Assembly (NCBI GenBank): GCA_034231615.1
Contig: CM067306.1
Coordinates: 43,530,094 to 43,594,093, forward strand
From: Meghimatium bilineatum
Taxonomy: Eukaryota > Mollusca > Gastropoda > Stylommatophora > Philomycidae
Reading direction: 5' to 3'
Length of the DNA: 64,000 nucleotides
In this document: piece by piece, positions 8,546 to 62,799 of the stretch
How the letters are laid out: the number at the start of each line of letters is the position of its first letter
Position numbering within the stretch: position 1 is the stretch's first letter
Translations under genes and position numbers: made by a program
The notes under the pieces: model-generated
What the model was told of the DNA's origin: nothing
What the model saw: the letters and a program-made list of their open reading frames with translations, nothing else
Database searches by the model: none

Positions 8546-8872
8546 ATACATTTCATGTATTCTCTTTCGTTGACTGTTCCCTGCCGTATTGGTGCATGTT
8601 CAAGTGAACAAAATGTACATTTAATAATTCATTAAAATTTAATAACCATACCTCATTGAGAGAGAATTTTAATGAGTCAGCGAACCACAGGAACTATCAG
8701 CCTACATACACTTTGATATTTTCTTGGTGAAACTGATCACCTCATGGGTTTGCCAGGAGTTCAGTGACGTCGACTCATGCATAAACAATCTGTTTATATA
8801 ATTAATGTTGAAGTTACCCAGTTTCAACAGTGTAGTACATAAATATTCAGTAAACTAGAAATATGATGGGAA
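8546..8872. other. no recognised feature
   Basis: AT-rich unique sequence. Confidence 0.4.
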
Positions 8873-13299: not shown

Positions 13300-14125
13300 T
13301 TTTAGAGTGAGTTCTGACATAGACCACCCACTACACACCTAGCTCCCTCTTGTGTAGGGAATCAGGCTCAAGAGAGGCAAATCGTGGATGGGTCGGGCCG
13401 AGGATACCGTTAAACACATCTGCTCCCCACAAGACGCTCCTGGCGAGGAATGGATACCAAATCTACGTTCTTTCAAGAGGCAGTCAAGACCGTTATTACA
13501 CTAAACAGAGAGTGCAGGAAACACAGTGACGTAAGCGTGGATGCTGAGGTCAAGGCACTAATATGAGAGAATGCCGATGATTCAGATGTTGTGATTTACA
13601 CGGACGGGTCGGTCATTCTTCACCAGCGATTCACATGGGCCTATACTGTCAGATCAAAAGGGAAAACAGTACATGGAGCCAGTGGTGCCTTTACCGCAAT
13701 AACGAGCAGTCTAAATATGGAAGTGTTCGCCGTAACGCAGGCAATTTATCGGCTGAAATCGCACACCTATTCCCATGCATGTATACTAAGTGATTCACTG
13801 AATATGATTCAGAAAGTCAAAACAGGTGATGTACGTAGGGAATGGGCGAAGTCATTGGAGAGAGCTCAAATGCGGGCATCACTACGAAAAGTCCTCGAAA
13901 AGTCCTCACGATCAGAGGATTTTGAGATGAATAAGCATGAGTCAAAATCAAGAATTCAAGAATTGGGAGAGAGGTTGAATTTGACCCGATGACAAAGTAT
14001 TCAAAAAGAGTAGTAAACCAACAAATAACCGGAACAATCAGCCGTTTTACCCTAAGAGATTTATGAAGCGGAGATCGGAGCACCAATGGACGTTTCAGGT
14101 GTGCGAAGATGATAATCAACATACC
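13300..14125 (+). pseudogene. LINE-D RNase H region, frameshifted
   Basis: The plus strand, over several frames, reads EWIPNLRSFKR..KTVITLNRECRKHSD, a stop, then the clear RNase H start IYTDGSV (first catalytic Asp), SGAFTAITSSLNMEVFAV (Glu) and ACILSDSLNMI (second Asp) with REWAKSLE. After a rearranged stretch, VVNQQITGTISRFTLRDL marks the C-terminal end. This is the RNase H plus C-terminus of an I-group-like LINE widespread in molluscs. The endonuclease and RT are missing, and at least two frameshifts and one internal loss make it non-functional. The 133-codon ORF at 13591-13992 is its longest open part. Confidence 0.8.
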
Positions 14126-20334: not shown

Positions 20335-20945
20335 AGTGATGTTACTGAGATTTGACAACTTCACCAAGCATTGCATATTGCTGAGAGTTGACAACTACTC
20401 CAGGCATTGAATATTACTGCGGATTGACTACACAGAAATAATGAAAATAAAGTAAATCAAAAGAAGTTATCAACACAGGAAAATATGAACAAAGTGAATA
20501 CAAGGGTAATATGAACATTAGAAAATCAGTACGTATTCTAATTTCATAGATTAATCAATATCAAACAGTAATAATCTGTGGAATTAAAGGTAGACTTTGT
20601 TTCATACTAGTTCGAGTTGACAACGTCGCATGTGCTTTGCATACTATTGCGAGTAGACAACTTCTCCAAGAGTTGCACACTACCGTGTGTAGCCAACTTC
20701 ACCAAGCATTGCATATCACTGAAGGTTGAAAATTTCTCCACGAGGTGCATATGTCTGAGATGTGATAACTACAGTTGAGAACTTCTACTAGTAGTGGCTA
20801 TTACTGTGGGTTGACACATTCTTCAAGTATTATATATTACAGTAAGTTAACAACTTATCCAAGCGTTGCATATTACTGAGAGTTGACAACCGCTCCTACC
20901 ATTGCATATTACTGAAAGTTCACAATTTCTCTAAATGTTGCATAT
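20335..20945. repeat. ~37-bp minisatellite, left part
   Basis: Core GTTGACAACTTCTCCAAG then TTGCATATTACTG, degenerate. It is interrupted at 20431-20602 by the copied 172-bp segment, ends at the LINE-D insertion (20946), and resumes at 22435-22640. Confidence 0.9.
20431..20602 (+). repeat. 172-bp segment copied from 18292-18463
   Basis: Near-identical to 18292-18463, same orientation, inside the 37-bp minisatellite. Its edges show no target duplication or tail, only short shared bases (GAC..ACACAG), so a templated repair insertion fits better than transposition. Confidence 0.9.
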
Positions 20946-22432
20946 TATGTTGACAACTTTTCCATTAAGAAGAAAGGAATTCATAAAGAAAACCGATAGA
21001 ATACTGAAACATAACACAAACATTGGATATTGGAACTACAATAGCGCTAATCAGCGCGGCCCAGTTCTTGAACGATTCCTGTATGACTTACACATCATGT
21101 TATTACAGGAGACACAGGATGAACAGTTGAAATTAATGGACTTCGTGTGTCACGTCAATCCTGTAAGCCCAACACACCACAGGAAAGCCATTCTCGTTAG
21201 GCAAGGAATAGCACACACACACTATTGAATTTATCAGCGTGGGATAGAGAGAACAGAGAGCTGCAGGGTGTGCAGATAACATTCCAGGGTAGAAGGTTGA
21301 ATATCATCAACGTCTACATGGGAAATTGCTCCCATATTAAGCCTGACGACTGGGTGTTCATCAGCGAACTTGAGCATCTTCCTGGAGAAATGCTACTGGT
21401 TTGTGGAGATTTCAATGCACGAAATGTCTCCTGGGGAAACCCAAACAACAACCCTCAAGGACTGGCTTTAAATCAAGCGCTACTCGAGACTGACATAACT
21501 CTTCTGAACTGCATGAGCATGATTAGATTAGCAACCACAGAAACAGACTCCGATTCCAACATTAACCTCGCACTGATCTCAGGTCATGGAGCGACAGATG
21601 CGAGATGGACAGCTCTCAAATATCATGGAAGCGACCATTTGCCATGCGCTATAAGTGTCTCGAAAGGGCGTCTTGACAGATTGATCAAGCTTGACCACCC
21701 TTCACCCTTTCAGATATGCGCGCACGAAAGAATCAGTACTTAGCAGCTTGAGGAAGAAGGCCTGGGAACGCAAGTGGGTGAGACCTAAAATCCAACAGCC
21801 CCCATGGTGGAATAAAGAGACATAGGCAATATGGCTACTAAAAAAGCAAGCGATAAAGGATTGGCAACGCATTAGGAAACAGGCAAACATTACACTCAGT
21901 AAGAGACTGAAGGCACAGAGTACAATGAAGAAGACAATAGAGTCTTTTAAACAAGTTGCCGAAGTAGCAAAGAAGATATGTTGAAAACAAATTTACTGAG
22001 TAGGTCACGGCGGACAAAGTATTACACAAGTTTTGGAAACTACATATGTCAATGAAGCGGAGAACAGAATCGAAACCCAGTACAAGCGTGAGGGATGACA
22101 CAGGGCAGACATTGATATCAGATGATATGAAAGGCAGAGCTTTCTTTGATAGATATCTTTAACAAACTAATCAGGGTGACTTAGATCAGCGCAAAGATGC
22201 AGATGATGTCAATGATGTTGAGAACGTACACATACAGAGAATGTTAGAAATTGGAGTATCTGGAGGTGAGGGAAGGAAAAGTAATTTTTTTGGAAAGTCC
22301 CGAAGATCACACAATCAACATCTGACCGGAACTCTGAGTCTACATACACTGGGATGGCTGCTGGAGCGGAGGGCGGAACACTTATGGGCATGTTACGCGT
22401 GCTGTGAAGCCAGTTTCTAATCAAGAATCAAG
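20946..22432 (+). mobile_element. LINE-D copy with internal deletion of RT and most of RNase H
   Basis: The element begins with an endonuclease domain, continues into the linker, and then jumps straight to the extreme C-terminus of the same family. Reading: NIGYWNYNSANQRGPVLERF and MLLQETQDE (catalytic Glu), a one-base frameshift near 21220, LLVCGDFNARNVSWGN and HGSDHLPC, linker QQPPWWNKE, TMKKTIESFKQVAEVAKK, ADKVLHKFWK. After about 22240 it reads MLEIGVSGGEGRKSN and SLHTLGWLLERRAEHLWACY, ending CCEASF-stop at 22420 and a TCAAGAATCAAGAA tail. No RT palm is present. The 37-bp minisatellite flanks both sides, so the already-deleted element probably inserted as a unit. Confidence 0.82.
21225..21743 (+). 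pseudogene. LINE-D endonuclease, main open part
   Basis: A 172-codon frame holding most of an EEP endonuclease: VQITFQGRRLNIINVYMG, then LLVCGDFNARNVSWGN with catalytic Asp/Asn, and YHGSDHLPC at the C-terminal catalytic histidine. The first quarter (20935-21224, with LLQETQ) is in another frame. The family role is target-DNA nicking for retrotransposition; the frameshift makes this copy inactive. Confidence 0.8.
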
Positions 22433-22434
22433 AA

Positions 22435-22640
22435 CCATTTGTTGATACTGAAAGTCAATAAATTATGCAAGTGTTGCATATTACTGTGAGTTGACAACTT
22501 CTCCAAGTGCTGTATATAACTGTGGGTTGAGAATCTCTCCAAGTGTTGCATATTACTTAGCGTTGACAGCTTCTCCAAGTGTTGTATATTACTGAGAATT
22601 GACAACTTCTCCAAGTGTTGCATACTACTTCTGAGTATGA
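22435..22640. repeat. ~37-bp minisatellite, right part
   Basis: Continuation of the 20335-20945 array: CAAGTGTTGCATATTACTG, GAGTTGACAACTTCTC, about 5 units. Confidence 0.92.
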
Positions 22641-25685: not shown

Positions 25686-25775
25686 CTCACCAAAAGAACT
25701 TATTAAGCAAATGACACGAGACACATTTATAGTTAAAACACTGATAATTCTGGCATGATTAAAGCTAGCGAGTCT

Positions 25776-26237
25776 CTACAATTCAGGAGATGATATGCAC
25801 CTAGCAAGTCTGTACACTTCTGGAGATGATATGCACCTAGCAAGTCTGTACAATTCTGGAGATGATATGCACCTAGCAAGTCTGTACAATTCTGGAGATG
25901 ATATGCACCTAGCAAGTCTGTACACTTCTGGAGATGATATGCACCTAGCAAGTCTGTACACTTCTGGAGATGATATGCACCTAGCAAGTCTGTACACTTC
26001 TGGAGATGATATGCACCTAGCAAGTCTGTACGCTTCTGGAGATGATATGCACCTAGCAAGTCTGTATACTTCTGGAGATGATATGCACCTAGCAAGTCTG
26101 TACACTTCTGGAGATGATATGCACCTAGCAAGTCTGTACAATTCTGGAGATGATATGCACCTAGCAAGTCTGTACACTTCTGGAGATGATATGCACCTAG
26201 CAAGTCTGTACAATTCTGGAGATGATATGCAGAATTG
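25776..26237. repeat. 36-bp tandem array, about 12.5 units
   Basis: Unit contains CTAGCAAGTCTGTACACTTC then TGGAGATGATATGCAC; units differ mainly at ACACTTC/ACAATTC. The period is a multiple of three, so a 12-residue repeat frame (MHLASLYTSGDD) stays open on the plus strand and others on the minus. Variant units continue after the insertion, at 26501-26560. Confidence 0.98.
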
Positions 26238-26500
26238 TCGTAGTCGTAACCTTTGATAACAGTTACCATGTTGTTCTGACAGGTCGACGTTGTGCTTGAA
26301 ATAGTATGGGTACGGGGTGGGTGGGCTGAACAACAAAGAAACCTGTTGCAAGGGCCAAAGTTGTTCCCTGATGTTGACGTCTGTTTAGGCGGCATTAGAC
26401 GTGAAACACCATCGAGTCGGATGGCTGCTGGAGGAGAGGGCGGATCACTTATGGGAATGCCCCACGTGCTGTGAGGCCAGTTTCTAATCAAGAATCAATA
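26238..26500 (+). mobile_element. mini-retroposon (263 bp) with LINE-D 3' end
   Basis: Discrete insertion flanked by an 11-bp direct repeat ATGCAGAATTG (26227-26237 and 26501-26511). The first ~150 bases (TCGTAGTCGTAACC... to ...GTTGTTCCCTGATG) resemble no LINE coding region that I recognise. The last ~100 read in one frame as VGWLLEERADHLWECPTCCE, ending ASF-stop with AATCAAGAATCAA, which is the C-terminus and tail of LINE-D at 22360-22432. The same element, same 5' start, is at 50984-51253. It is therefore a non-autonomous element likely mobilised by LINE-D, either a SINE with a LINE-derived tail or an extreme internal-deletion LINE. Confidence 0.82.
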
Positions 26501-26565
26501 ATGCAGAATTGCTGCTAATAAGTCTGTACAATTCTGGAGATGATATGCAGAATTGATGCTAGTAA
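26501..26565. repeat. 36-bp array, right-hand variant units
   Basis: About 1.5 units of the 25776 array with AGAATTG in place of ACCTAG. The second unit, GATATGCAGAATTGATGCT, preserves the sequence of the mini-retroposon's uninterrupted target site. Confidence 0.88.
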
Positions 26566-26619
26566 GCCTGAAAAAAAAAATTGTGAGAGCGTTCTAGTGT
26601 AGATATTACCGTTTACTTT

Positions 26620-44641: not shown

Positions 44642-45739
44642 CAAATGGCTTTAACTAGAAGATTTTGCTGAAATACACGCATCACTTTTTATCGCAACAG
44701 CCATTAAGAGTTCCTCCATTTGTTCTTTGAAGAGAAGGACCTGGTGTACTGTACATATGTTGTTCACCTTCTGCAGAAGCTTGGAGTGCAACATTATGAA
44801 CCCAGAGATTGGAGACTGTTCATTGACAGCTGCAAGAAATCACTAAAATGTGTTCCGCTTCACAATGGCAATCAGTTTGCTTCTGTCCCCCTTGCTCACT
44901 CGACTACATTGAAGTAGAAGTATGAAGCGGTGAAGTATGTGCTGGATAAAGTTTCTTATTATCAGCACGAGTGGTATATTTTCGTTGACTTGAAGATTGT
45001 GAATTTCCTATTGGGACAACAGTCTGGCTTTACAAAGTTTCCCTGCTTTCTGTGCATGTGGGATAGTAGGGAAAGGTTTCAACACTATACCAAGAAGGAC
45101 TGGCCTGCACGAGAAGAATTGGTGCCGGGTAGATCAAAGTACATTGTCCAGAATCCCCTAGTAGACAGAAACAAGATACTATTGCCACCGCTGCATATCA
45201 AGCTTGGCTTGATTAAACAGTTCACCACAGCCCTGGACAAGGATGGTGGCTGCTTCAGTTACTTGTGCCGAGCTTTTCCAGGATTAGTCATAGAGTTGTT
45301 GAAAGGTGGCATTTTTTATGGTTCTCAAGTTCGTCAGCTTATCAGAGATTCTGAGTTTGAAATATCAATGAACAAATTGGAATTGGAAGCATGGAAGGCC
45401 TTTGTTCTTATGGTGAAGAATGTTTTGGGCAACACCAGAGCCAGTAACTATGAAGAAGCTGTCAACAATATGCTGACTGCTTTCAAAAACCTTGGATGCA
45501 ACATGAGCATAAACATGTATTATTTATTTTCACATATGGATCAGTTTCCCGAGAATCTTGGCTCAATGAGTGACGAGCAGGGAGAGATGTTCCATCAGGA
45601 CATAAAAGAGATCGAGATCAGGTATCAAGGACATTGGGATGCAGTAATGATGGCTGATTACCGTTGGACTTCGATTACGTTGAGACATCACTGCTGCTGA
45701 GCACTCGAGAAAGTCGAAGAAATTGAAGTTTATGTCTTG
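44642..45739 (+). pseudogene. decayed ORF of a widespread, probably transposon-derived protein family
   Basis: One frame runs from ~44642 to ~45690 with three stops: TGA at 44669, TAA at 44705 and TAG at 44915. Conserved blocks: YRNSH.EFLHLFFEEKDLVY, WRLFIDSCKKSLKCV, HNGNQFASVPLAHS, FTKFPCFLCMWDSR, PLHIKLGLIKQF, MSDEQGEMFHQDI and YQGHWDAVMMADYRW. The frame is then lost; a HSRKSKKLKFMS end appears one frame over (45703-45739). I recall near-identical blocks in many arthropod, cnidarian and mollusc 'uncharacterized' proteins present in several copies per genome, which suggests a DNA-transposon origin, but the family function is unknown to me. The 256-codon piece at 44930-45700 is the longest open part. 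No terminal repeats were seen. Confidence 0.72.
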
Positions 45740-50345: not shown

Positions 50346-50983
50346 ACAACATATAAACCACTCTATACGTAATCGCTACTTTACAGCATAAATACAACAT
50401 ATACTATACAATATAAATGTCACACTACCATACACTTGTTGCACTGCAACATACTTACCACACTTAAAATAGAAGTATCTCTGTGTAGCATATATTATGC
50501 AGTACAAAACAAAAATGTTACAAATTAAATACTTTCTGTACAACATACATGTTTCTATACACAATAAAAGCTACAGTTTAACATAGATGTTACTGTACAG
50601 CTTAAATAATACTGTACAACAAATGCCACACCACAAATTAATTGACTTCTTACAATAGAAATGCTAACTTATAACTTAAATGCTGTCTTGCAACAGAAAC
50701 GTCACACTGCAATTTAAATTCTTTGTTACAACATAAATGTCGATGTACAACTTACAAGCAACCATACAACATTAATATCGAGGTACAAAGTAAACGCTAC
50801 CATACAACATAAATATTAACGTACAATGCAAACGCTACCATACAACATAAATATTAACGTACAATGCAAACGCTACCATACAACATAAATATTAACGTAC
50901 AATGCAAACGCTACCATACAACATAAATATTAACGTACAATGCAAACGCTACCATACAACATAAATATCGATGTATTTATGTA
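50346..50983. repeat. ~38-bp array, degenerate then homogeneous
   Basis: Old units (ACAACATAAATGTTACTGTA types) lead into four near-identical 38-bp units (CGCTACCATACAACATAAAT then ATTAACGTACAATGCAAA) at ~50790-50960. Interrupted by a mini-retroposon at 50984; continues to ~51320. Confidence 0.92.
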
Positions 50984-51253
50984 CGTAGTCGTAATCTTCG
51001 ATAACAGTTACCATTATGATCGGACAGACCGACGTTGCGCTTGAACTAGTTACGGGAACGGCGTGGGGGGGAACAACAAAGTAACCTGTCGCAAGGGCCA
51101 GAGTTGTGCCCTGATGTCGCCATCAGTTCCGGTGACATTAGACTCGAAACACCATCGAGTCGGATGGCTGCTGGGACAGAGGGCGGTGCACTTATGGGAA
51201 TGCCCACGTTTTTTGTGGCCAGTTTCTAATCACGAATAAAGAGGATCACGAAT
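50984..51253 (+). mobile_element. mini-retroposon, copy 2
   Basis: Collinear with 26239-26500 from CGTAGTCGTAATCTTCGATA through ACAGTTACCATTATGAT, CGCAAGGGCCAGAGTTGTG and TCGAGTCGGATGGCTGCTGG to TTTCTAATCACGAATAAA. The tail unit is repeated (GATCACGAATAAA twice). It starts at the same 5' base as copy 1, so the 5' end is a real element boundary. Target duplication is not clear here because the flanks are themselves repeats. A small loss and a TTTTTT run replace part of the CCCACGTGCTGTGAG segment. Confidence 0.8.
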
Positions 51254-51330
51254 AAACATCAATGTACAACATCAAAGCTACCATACAACATAAATATCGA
51301 TGTACAATGTAAAAGCTACTAAACATATCA
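51254..51330. repeat. 38-bp array, right part
   Basis: CAATGTACAACATCAAAGCT and ACCATACAACATAAATATCG resume after the insertion. Confidence 0.88.
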
Positions 51331-52110: not shown

Positions 52111-53110
<1,000 letters not shown>

Positions 53111-53500
53111 CCCGTCTATCTGTCTTTCTATCTATATATGTATATATCTATGTAGTTGTTTGTGTGTATCTCTGGAAGCGTATGTGTTAATCAAACGATA
53201 ACTCAAATCTCTATTTATAACCTAATGTAGAAACAGTGTTACAGCCGTATATTTCATTAAAAGCGACACACTAGAAATGTGGTTATAGCGAACCCATTTC
53301 CTAAACATTATGTGCCGCTGTCGATAGTATTCACACATAATTTTTGTTATAGATTCTTGAAATTCTGGTTTTACAACTTGACATTTATCTTCTACTTGCT
53401 GATTCTAGAGTCCGAGTCATACACTGATATGAAATACATCAATGAACTGTACTGTTGTCATCCGTCACTTGATACAGTCGCATTGCTTGTCCGTCAGAAC
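53111..53500. other. no recognised feature
   Basis: Unique sequence after the microsatellite. Confidence 0.4.
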
Positions 53501-54059: not shown

Positions 54060-54474
54060 TGACATTATGACTAATATGGATGCGGTGAATAATTCCTGTG
54101 TGCTGAAAGTGACTTTTATTTTTGTGCCGGAACATGCGGAAATCCTGGGTAATGAGAGAGCAGATAGTGTGACACGCAGCTACTACGGATGTTTGCGGAC
54201 CAATGGATCGTGCAGACATTTTGAACGTCCTACGGCAAACGCACGAACAAATGACTGTATAAGGGACGATTACTTTTGTTCCGTAACTAGAATAACGGAT
54301 CTTGGTTTAAAATGTAGTGGTGCTAGAAAGGAACGGTGTCGTGGATGCGGAAGAATGATGGTCAATCAACGGCGCACTGGGACAGTCAGTCAACTTGTAA
54401 CGCCGGATATACTCAGGGAGAGATCTTGTCAGGAGTGCAGTGACAATGATCCAACGACTAACTCACATAAATAA
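54060..54474 (+). pseudogene. LINE-D RNase H end and C-terminus
   Basis: A 135-codon open frame reads LKVTFIFVPEHAEILGNERA, DSVTRSYYG (last RNase H block, usually W.PGH.G..GNERAD), then ITDLGLKCSGARKERCRG, VNQRRTGTVSQLVTPDIL and CQECSDNDPTTN. This matches the C-terminal layout of the 13300 and 22250 LINE-D copies. RNase H removes RNA from the RNA-DNA hybrid during retrotransposition. No upstream RT remains; PEHAE for PGHAG is a likely decay change. The frame end TNSHK-stop is probably native. Confidence 0.8.
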
Positions 54475-61600: not shown

Positions 61601-62799
61601 AAACATATGATAATTATATTAAACAGTTTACCTGTGTCACAAAAATGCGCGTTTTCCAATTGTTGCACACAATTATGGTTTATGCCATGTTGTTTTTAGT
61701 GTAAGACAATGCTGCATTACACAAAACCAGTTACAGTGAACAAGTCACTCGCCAACATGGATGGATATCCACTGAAAGCCGTGATTCAGGTTTCAAATAC
61801 AACAACATTTATCAAGAAAACCGGGCACGCTGTGTAGACATGTTAAACTGTGAACAAGAAGAGAAAAATATGACATATACTACTGACTGAGTACATCATA
61901 TTTTTTGGACACAGATATGGACACTGAAACAGTCACACAATATATAGGTTCTTTTTCACATACACAATGTATGTGGGTCCCACCAAGGGTCCACAACATC
62001 AAACGCCCATCTAACATAAAACCTTACTATATGCCTATAGAAGGCATTCTTTTTCTGAAACTTTTTCAGTAAGTAATGTATACAATTATTTGTCTCATGT
62101 TTTTGTGTCTTTATTCTGTGTCATTTACGTATATAAGACATTTAATATTATAGGCAACTGTCGATGGAAAAATTGTAGTTCTAAATATTGTCAATAAATG
62201 CACACAGAAGCACTGTAGAACAAATCTTCCTCATTAGAACTTTAAGAGAGAAATGAATTGAGGATCAGCATTATCCATGCTTCAATCTCATCGACTTTAC
62301 GAAGTCTGTGTCTGGTATGATGGTCTCTGTTATATACTTAGACAATAAAATATTTACATAAGCAGAATATATATTGTCGAATCATTATACAATAGCGACA
62401 ATGTCTTATCAAAGGATACGATAGAGCAGATTATTTAGAACAAATGTGGAAGTCCTGCAGGGATGGATCATATTTTCAATTCCTTTCAATACATAAATGG
62501 AATATATAAAACCAGACACTTAAAATTTTGTTTCTATCGACTGGCGGTCGCAATATCTTCAATTGTCGTTTCTCGGAAGATATTACCTCTTATATCTGGA
62601 ACAGAACAAGAACTATAAGGGCTAAAAGTAAAATTGAGAAAGTTACCTCAAAATGAACACATAAAAGATCAAATATTTTTCTAACAACAGAGACATAGAG
62701 ACAAGGACCAGCATTATACTGAATAGGTATAAACTTAAACAAGTAAATACTTTTAAATACTGCACTTAGGATCCTGCATATACAGTGATGGAAATTCCA
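61601..62799. other. no recognised feature (about 1.2 kb)
   Basis: Unique AT-rich sequence; no arrays or coding signals recognised. Confidence 0.45.

Follow-up and report, generated by a model that had tools for sequence, protein, structure and literature searches.

A 263-bp insert stands inside a minisatellite array in a stretch of 64,000 nucleotides of the Meghimatium bilineatum genome (contig CM067306.1; hereafter the window). It raises the question of what kind of element it is and where its parts come from. A first-pass annotation described it as a complete mini-retroposon whose 5' part of about 150 bp is foreign and whose 3' end is borrowed from an RNase H LINE, here called LINE-D. The explanation that we prefer, with a probability of about 80%, is that the insert is a cut copy of a LINE-D-dependent, snoRNA-headed and internally deleted retroposon of ~406 nt.

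Two insertions in minisatellite arrays and their family

The insert (copy 1) occupies positions 26238-26500 on the forward strand and corresponds to nucleotides ~145-406 of the consensus model of the family, being cut at the joint between the snoRNA-like and the LINE parts. The 11-bp perfect target duplication claimed for it was confirmed: ATGCAGAATTG abuts both ends (26227-26237 and 26501-26511). Once the flanks are joined, the array units measure 36, 36, 36, 44 and 44 bp, and excision of the insert with one duplication restores the 44-bp register. As a control for chance duplication, abutting 11-bp repeats were counted at random placements in the window. Arrays can mimic a target duplication, because 666 of 20000 placements starting in arrays had such a repeat (319/20000 anywhere in the window). 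When the start lay in an array and the right flank outside, which is the situation of copy 1, the count was 0/20000.

The second copy proposed at 50984 exists (50984-51251, forward strand) and has the same 5' class, but it starts one base later, with CGTAG instead of TCGTAG. The two copies are 83.1% identical over 261 columns. The left target duplication of copy 2 (50961-50975, 15 bp) has 2 mismatches to the right one (51252-51266), and an 8-nt filler, TTTATGTA (50976-50983, forward strand), lies between it and the first base of the element. Its empty site restores array units of 38 bp. The minisatellite arrays touched by the LINE-D relic and by both copies are found at 20342-22629, 25765-26580 and 50727-51330, and arrays with a period of at least 10 make up 15% of the window. 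These contacts hint at a possible preference for tandem arrays. The window also harbors a TATC tetranucleotide repeat of ~1 kb (52117-53151) and an open frame of 260 codons (44918-45700), for which no Pfam match was found at E up to 0.001.

When the 263-bp insert was used as query against the species' own genome, 5203 first-look candidates were obtained, of which 40 were scored; these 40 matches all start at query base 1-4 and end at 252-263. The thirty loci that were read are the top matches to copy 1, a selection that leaves out copies cut further in. In most of them the same sequence is present upstream of CGTAG, and a consensus of 406 nt was built from 15 full copies. Copy 1 has 91.3% identity to this consensus and copy 2 has 87.6%, against 94.3-97.7% for the other 29. 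The chimeric structure is uniform in the dispersed copies: 15 of the 30 loci are full and run to the snoRNA 5' end, and 22 of the 30 extend, wholly or partly, over an additional ~143 nt. The 263 bp are thus not the whole element, and the 5' base shared by copies 1 and 2 is a recurrent break and not the element's own end.

Direct repeats of at least 9 bp were detected near the inferred ends at 20 of the 30 loci. The 11-bp repeat of copy 1 was established separately, the longer match that the script gave there being the array. Two duplications are less sure: one repeat of L020 stands 37 nt beyond the 3' end, and that of L018 stops ~9 nt short of the aligned start. Repeats of 8 bp were found near the ends of L008, L009 and L016, the repeat of L015 is ambiguous, and no fitting duplication was found at 6 of the 30 loci (L011, L012, L019, L022, L029 and L030). 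The 40 scored matches and the repeats at 20 loci support the earlier claim of a repeated, non-autonomous retroposon that ends in a LINE coding end and tail. With the patterns and queries used, no relatives were found in viral contigs, bacterial genome contigs, plasmids or phages.

LINE-D and its three pieces in the element

The LINE-D relic in the window (20946-22431, forward strand; left limit judged from the array flank) is composed of an endonuclease, a linker and then the C-terminus and tail. Reverse transcriptase (RT) and RNase H are missing between the endonuclease and the C-terminus. An endonuclease query against the 1.6-Gb genome gave 150 scored LINE relatives of 7742 candidates, and seven LINE loci were fetched for comparison with the element consensus. 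Pfam detected endonuclease (EN), RT and RNase H domains in the fetched loci; RNase H lies above the cut-off of 25.8 bits in L067 (28.1) and below it in L061 (25.0). An RNase H LINE as the source, which had been proposed from the window, is therefore upheld by the fetched loci and not by the relic itself. Another RNase H LINE relic is present in the window at 13567-14104, where an RNase H domain (Pfam) is followed by a frameshifted LINE-D-like C-terminus.

The last codons of LINE-D are NQHLTGTLSLHTLGWLLERRAEHLWACYACCEASF-stop. Here, as in copy 1, the tail AATCAAGAATCAA follows the stop codon directly, and the 3' UTR of LINE-D is nearly absent. The fetched LINE-D copies end like the one in the window. 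Copy 1 contains the frame VGWLLEERADHLWECPTCCEASF-stop, and its end is identical to LINE-D 22352-22431 at 71 of 80 positions, in agreement with the likeness of frame, stop and tail noted before for LINE-D 22360-22432. Eight of 24 codons differ between copy 1 and the LINE-D C-terminus and 6 of these 8 change the residue, so there is no sign of protein-level selection. A third-position excess was not seen in codon-position counts between copy 1 and copy 2.

Possible relatives of the LINE-D C-terminus were found elsewhere in the window, in LINE relics. The one at 8675-8725 scores 23.9 bits; 14001-14054 and 14063-14104, which directly follow an RNase H domain, score 22.7 and 20.8 bits; and 54343-54444, with 17.7 bits, is by score no better than chance. 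The best scores of shuffled C-terminus queries (n=200) had a median of 20.0, a 95% point of 23.5 and a maximum of 24.6. Only 8675-8725 exceeds the 95% point; the case is made by the location of these relatives behind LINE domains and by the shared ending of the fetched LINE-D copies.

Since LINE-D is almost without a 3' UTR, we infer that recognition by its RT must lie at least partly in coding sequence, and hence that a parasite has to carry the LINE-D coding end. Among RTE elements, a 3' UTR of 14 bp has been described (PMC2887409). No conserved RNA fold was found in the tail: the three tails were matched by 184, 19 and 155 of 200 shuffles that were at least as stable. The readable C-terminus, regarded earlier as an unusual feature, is indeed present in copy 1, but it needs no coding role, being simply how LINE-D normally ends, with the stop running straight into the tail; in copy 2 a 1-nt deletion breaks the frame.

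The full-length element contains, besides a snoRNA-like part of ~143 nt, three LINE-D pieces: about nt 75-143 (69 nt), nt 570-677 (107 nt) and the last 78 nt. The piece from the LINE-D 5' region (model 142-210) was found by BLAST on the LINE strand in 3 of the 7 fetched loci, at 94-96% identity; it is inverted in L065 and missing from the fetched stretch of L061, L064 and L067. The next piece (model 215-321) is present in all seven at 85-88% (from 241 in L067), as is the last one (model 329-406), at 86-93% (to 404 in L061). In copy 1 they lie on the forward strand at 26238-26303 (model ~145-210), 26306-26412 and 26420-26498, coordinates that were obtained by alignment and are approximate. The middle piece is N-terminal coding sequence of the LINE ORF, in the same frame and with the same residues (GRNNKETCRKDQRCVLLSTSVSVALDS in L062, GRNNKETCRKGQSCALMSTSVSAALDS in the consensus). 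It is joined in frame to the C-terminus, an outcome expected by chance one time in three. At least 59 open codons precede the stop motif in 12 of the 28 copies with the motif, and in the other 16 they do not. The supposedly foreign 5' ~150 bp thus consist of two LINE-D pieces, one of them coding, and the suggested comparison with the LINE-D 5' region gave a match. Plain divergent C-terminal LINE coding was rejected as an account of the insert, since the codons that immediately precede the joint position in LINE-D are different ones, which LINE-D shares with the second LINE relic at 8675.

The snoRNA-like head and the break at its edge

Seven LINE-D 5' ends were read (L033, L038, L044, L046, L051, L052 and L056), four of which are the same places as fetched LINE loci. 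They have ~75 nt in common upstream of ATCCCGTAG, starting near TTTCCGGTTAAAGATGGCG. L046 and L056 (which is also L065) resemble twin-primed insertions in that their LINE 5' piece runs opposite to the remainder of the LINE. The LINE-D 5' end includes AAGATGGCG, which we take to resemble a YY1 site, and this is a possible candidate for a Pol II promoter of LINE-D that is missing from the parasite. The first ~75 nt of LINE-D are absent from the element, and the snoRNA-like part stands there instead.

This head (model 1 to ~144) folds into a hairpin, a hinge, a second hairpin and a short ACA tail in all five copies folded, out of 15 full ones. The z scores of the folds range from -2.7 to -4.9; no shuffle was as stable in four of the five copies, and 2/200 were in the fifth. 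ANANNA (H box) is present in the printed hinge of 15/15 full copies, and ACA plus AUC precedes the joint in 14/15, L024 having AGA. With the 3' end inferred from the joint with the LINE piece, the architecture is that of a box H/ACA snoRNA: two hairpins, an ANANNA hinge and an ACA 3 nt before the end. The predicted guide pockets are small. SNORA35 (RF00566) was the best Rfam family at 3 of the 4 loci searched, with 21.9-24.9 bits against a gathering score of 39, and L005 alone (161 nt) matched it with E 0.0041 in an alignment that stops short of the real ACA box. Because the scores are below threshold and the alignment misses the ACA end, the class (H/ACA) is claimed here and identity with SNORA35 is not. 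Two diverged solitary relatives of the head, both without LINE pieces, were detected. One lies in the window at 61969-62086 (forward strand; model 18-143, nhmmer E 5.9e-8), where no Rfam match was found at E up to 1, and the other is at 3303-3437 of L048. They are possibly paralogues of a snoRNA gene or old retrocopies. A source snoRNA gene for the head was not found among the loci and the window read.

Other origins of the 5' part were considered. A conventional SINE, in which a Pol III head derived from tRNA, 5S or 7SL is joined to a LINE-D tail, would also be short, repeated, LINE-tailed and flanked by target duplications, and a weak A-box-like string does occur in the snoRNA-like part, with 13 of 20 for the box pair. 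However, the Pol III box pairs were matched by 300/300, 284/300, 72/200 and 46/200 shuffles. Rfam detected neither tRNA nor 5S nor 7SL in copies 1 and 2 at E up to 10, and ARAGORN gave nothing at default, 90 or 80 and only poor matches when lowered further. The tRNA, 5S or 7SL origin that had been suggested for the 5' 150 bp thus failed, these bases being LINE-D in copy 1, and we reject a Pol III head as very improbable. A self-cleaving head of the HDV or another type was likewise rejected, with no such Rfam match at E up to 10 in the two copies. It is also unlikely, to a lesser degree, that the first ~143 nt only resemble H/ACA, being another kind of structured repeat or the start of a LINE-D subfamily not seen here. 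Such an origin would agree with the sub-threshold Rfam score, the alignment ending before the ACA box, the source gene not found and the divergence of both solitary relatives. It agrees poorly with the two stable hairpins, the H-box hinge and the ACA placed exactly 3 nt before the joint, and the seven LINE-D 5' ends have a different ~75 nt there.

In local alignment to the consensus, 15 of the 30 loci start at model 1-6, seven inside the head (at 19, 19, 40, 85, 86, 117 and 128) and eight, including copy 1, at 142-146, the snoRNA 3' edge. When copy 2 is added, 9 of 16 cut copies start at 142-146. If cuts fell evenly over model 7-146, the chance of this would be about 9e-10, or 1.2e-7 once the choice of window is corrected for; leaving out copies 1 and 2 gives 2e-7 (uncorrected). 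Since the loci are the top matches to copy 1, copies cut further in are missing, yet this should not favor 142-146 over 7-141. The copies that start at CGTAG, copies 1 and 2 among them, could descend from a head-less deleted LINE-D template and not from stops or cuts at the edge. The sharp start class (8/30 loci plus copy 2) and the position of copies 1 and 2 as the most diverged from the consensus would suit this descent, which we regard as possible but not as the better account. LINE-D itself starts elsewhere, and the nine boundary copies do not cluster on the tree: their distribution takes 9 changes, not fewer than with shuffled labels, which average 8.0. This scatter, on a weakly resolved tree without a strongly supported branch, makes repeated stops at the snoRNA edge more likely than a single head-less lineage, though it is not proof. 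By our reading of the folds and the start positions, the stops come a few nt short of the 3' hairpin's base, which would fit a protein edge or 3' processing better than a bare stem. The recurrent break at the ACA edge suggests an RT stop or RNA processing at the snoRNP border.

Origin of the element and related systems

What was observed directly is the anatomy, the derivation of all three LINE pieces, the target duplications in most loci read and the repeated copies; from these we infer how the element arose and moves. LINE-D, with its endonuclease, RT and RNase H, would supply the enzymes. At the joint most of the LINE-D 5' ends read have GTGG-ATCCCGTAG, against ACA-ATCCCGTAG in the element. 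ATCC is common to both, at the point where the end of a mature H/ACA RNA is expected, that is, at the ACA plus three nucleotides. Most likely, the LINE-D RT, while copying a deleted LINE RNA, switched at this ATCC microhomology to a mature snoRNA, entering it at the 3' end (ACA plus AUC); RNA ligation is an alternative route to the chimera. Both routes are discussed for LINE-1 chimeras in the consulted part of PMC13174262. Copies that start right after ACA+3 may have formed where the RT halts, or the RNA is cut, at the edge of the folded, protein-bound snoRNA. In its working the element resembles a SINE fed by a LINE, and in its construction a deleted LINE that has received an H/ACA snoRNA head. 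A further proposal, which we consider doubtful, is that the snoRNA replaces the LINE promoter region and both makes and guards the RNA 5' end. The element would ride in host transcripts, protected from 5' exonucleases by the snoRNP, and would recruit the RT through the LINE-D coding end and tail. The starts at the snoRNA 5' end (15/30) and at the ACA edge (8/30) would then be a footprint, left in the genome, of the snoRNP on the template of retroposition.

The original description of snoRTE is reportedly that of Schmitz et al. in 2008. In snoRTE / PlatSINE1 of platypus an H/ACA snoRNA stands 5' of RTE LINE sequence (PMC7245038, PMC4233971; this and the following comparisons rest on the consulted parts of the papers cited). 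As there, an H/ACA 5' part, here recognized by architecture only, is joined to non-LTR sequence and amplified as a family. By description, however, the platypus partner is an RTE, while the present one encodes RNase H besides EN and RT, and the LINE part here is made of three pieces, the last one coding. Among snoRNA-headed elements snoRTE / PlatSINE1 is the known case; in the portions of the literature consulted, no such element was found with an RNase H LINE as its partner, nor any from an invertebrate.

Short internally deleted elements (SIDEs) include the R2 SIDEs (PMC3414825), Persaeus/Zenon (PMC6740152) and TbRIME/ingi (PMC2323293). As in these, a non-autonomous derivative arose here from a LINE by internal deletion and kept the LINE 3' end (model 329-406, 7/7 LINE loci). 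SIDEs keep the LINE's own 5' end, a ribozyme or, in RIME, a 79-bp signature, whereas our element keeps the LINE-D 5' region but not its first ~75 nt, LINE-D beginning ~75 nt upstream. It also differs in having two deletions instead of one. RIME, R2 SIDEs and Persaeus appear in these sources as deletion derivatives, with no added snoRNA described. A small structured RNA 5' of a deleted or truncated LINE is also found in SINE1-1_EBu of hagfish (PMC7245038), where it is 7SL RNA, and in the small-RNA/LINE-1 chimeras (U6, U3, 5S and others; PMC13174262). The explanations given for these cases are chimera formation, RNA ligation or template switching (PMC7245038, PMC13174262). The U6 chimeras usually spread no further (PMC13174262), unlike the element described here, which is repeated. 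Finally, truncated RTE copies mistaken for SINEs (PMC2887409) share the LINE coding end, a very short 3' UTR of simple repeats and target duplications. They are simple 5'-truncated copies, whereas this element fuses 5' and 3' LINE pieces and has a head added.

Joining an H/ACA-like sequence to LINE pieces is an uncommon way to build a genetic parasite, and this snoRNA-headed retroposon, whose LINE partner bears an RNase H, is apparently separate from the platypus family. The element suggests that coding sequence can contain what a LINE RT recognizes, in which case parasites of the LINE need part of its protein-coding end. Should an unbiased sample confirm the break at the ACA edge, genomes would keep a countable record of RNA-protein particles that halt retrotransposon RT, and a promoterless, processing-based route to parasite RNA would become testable.
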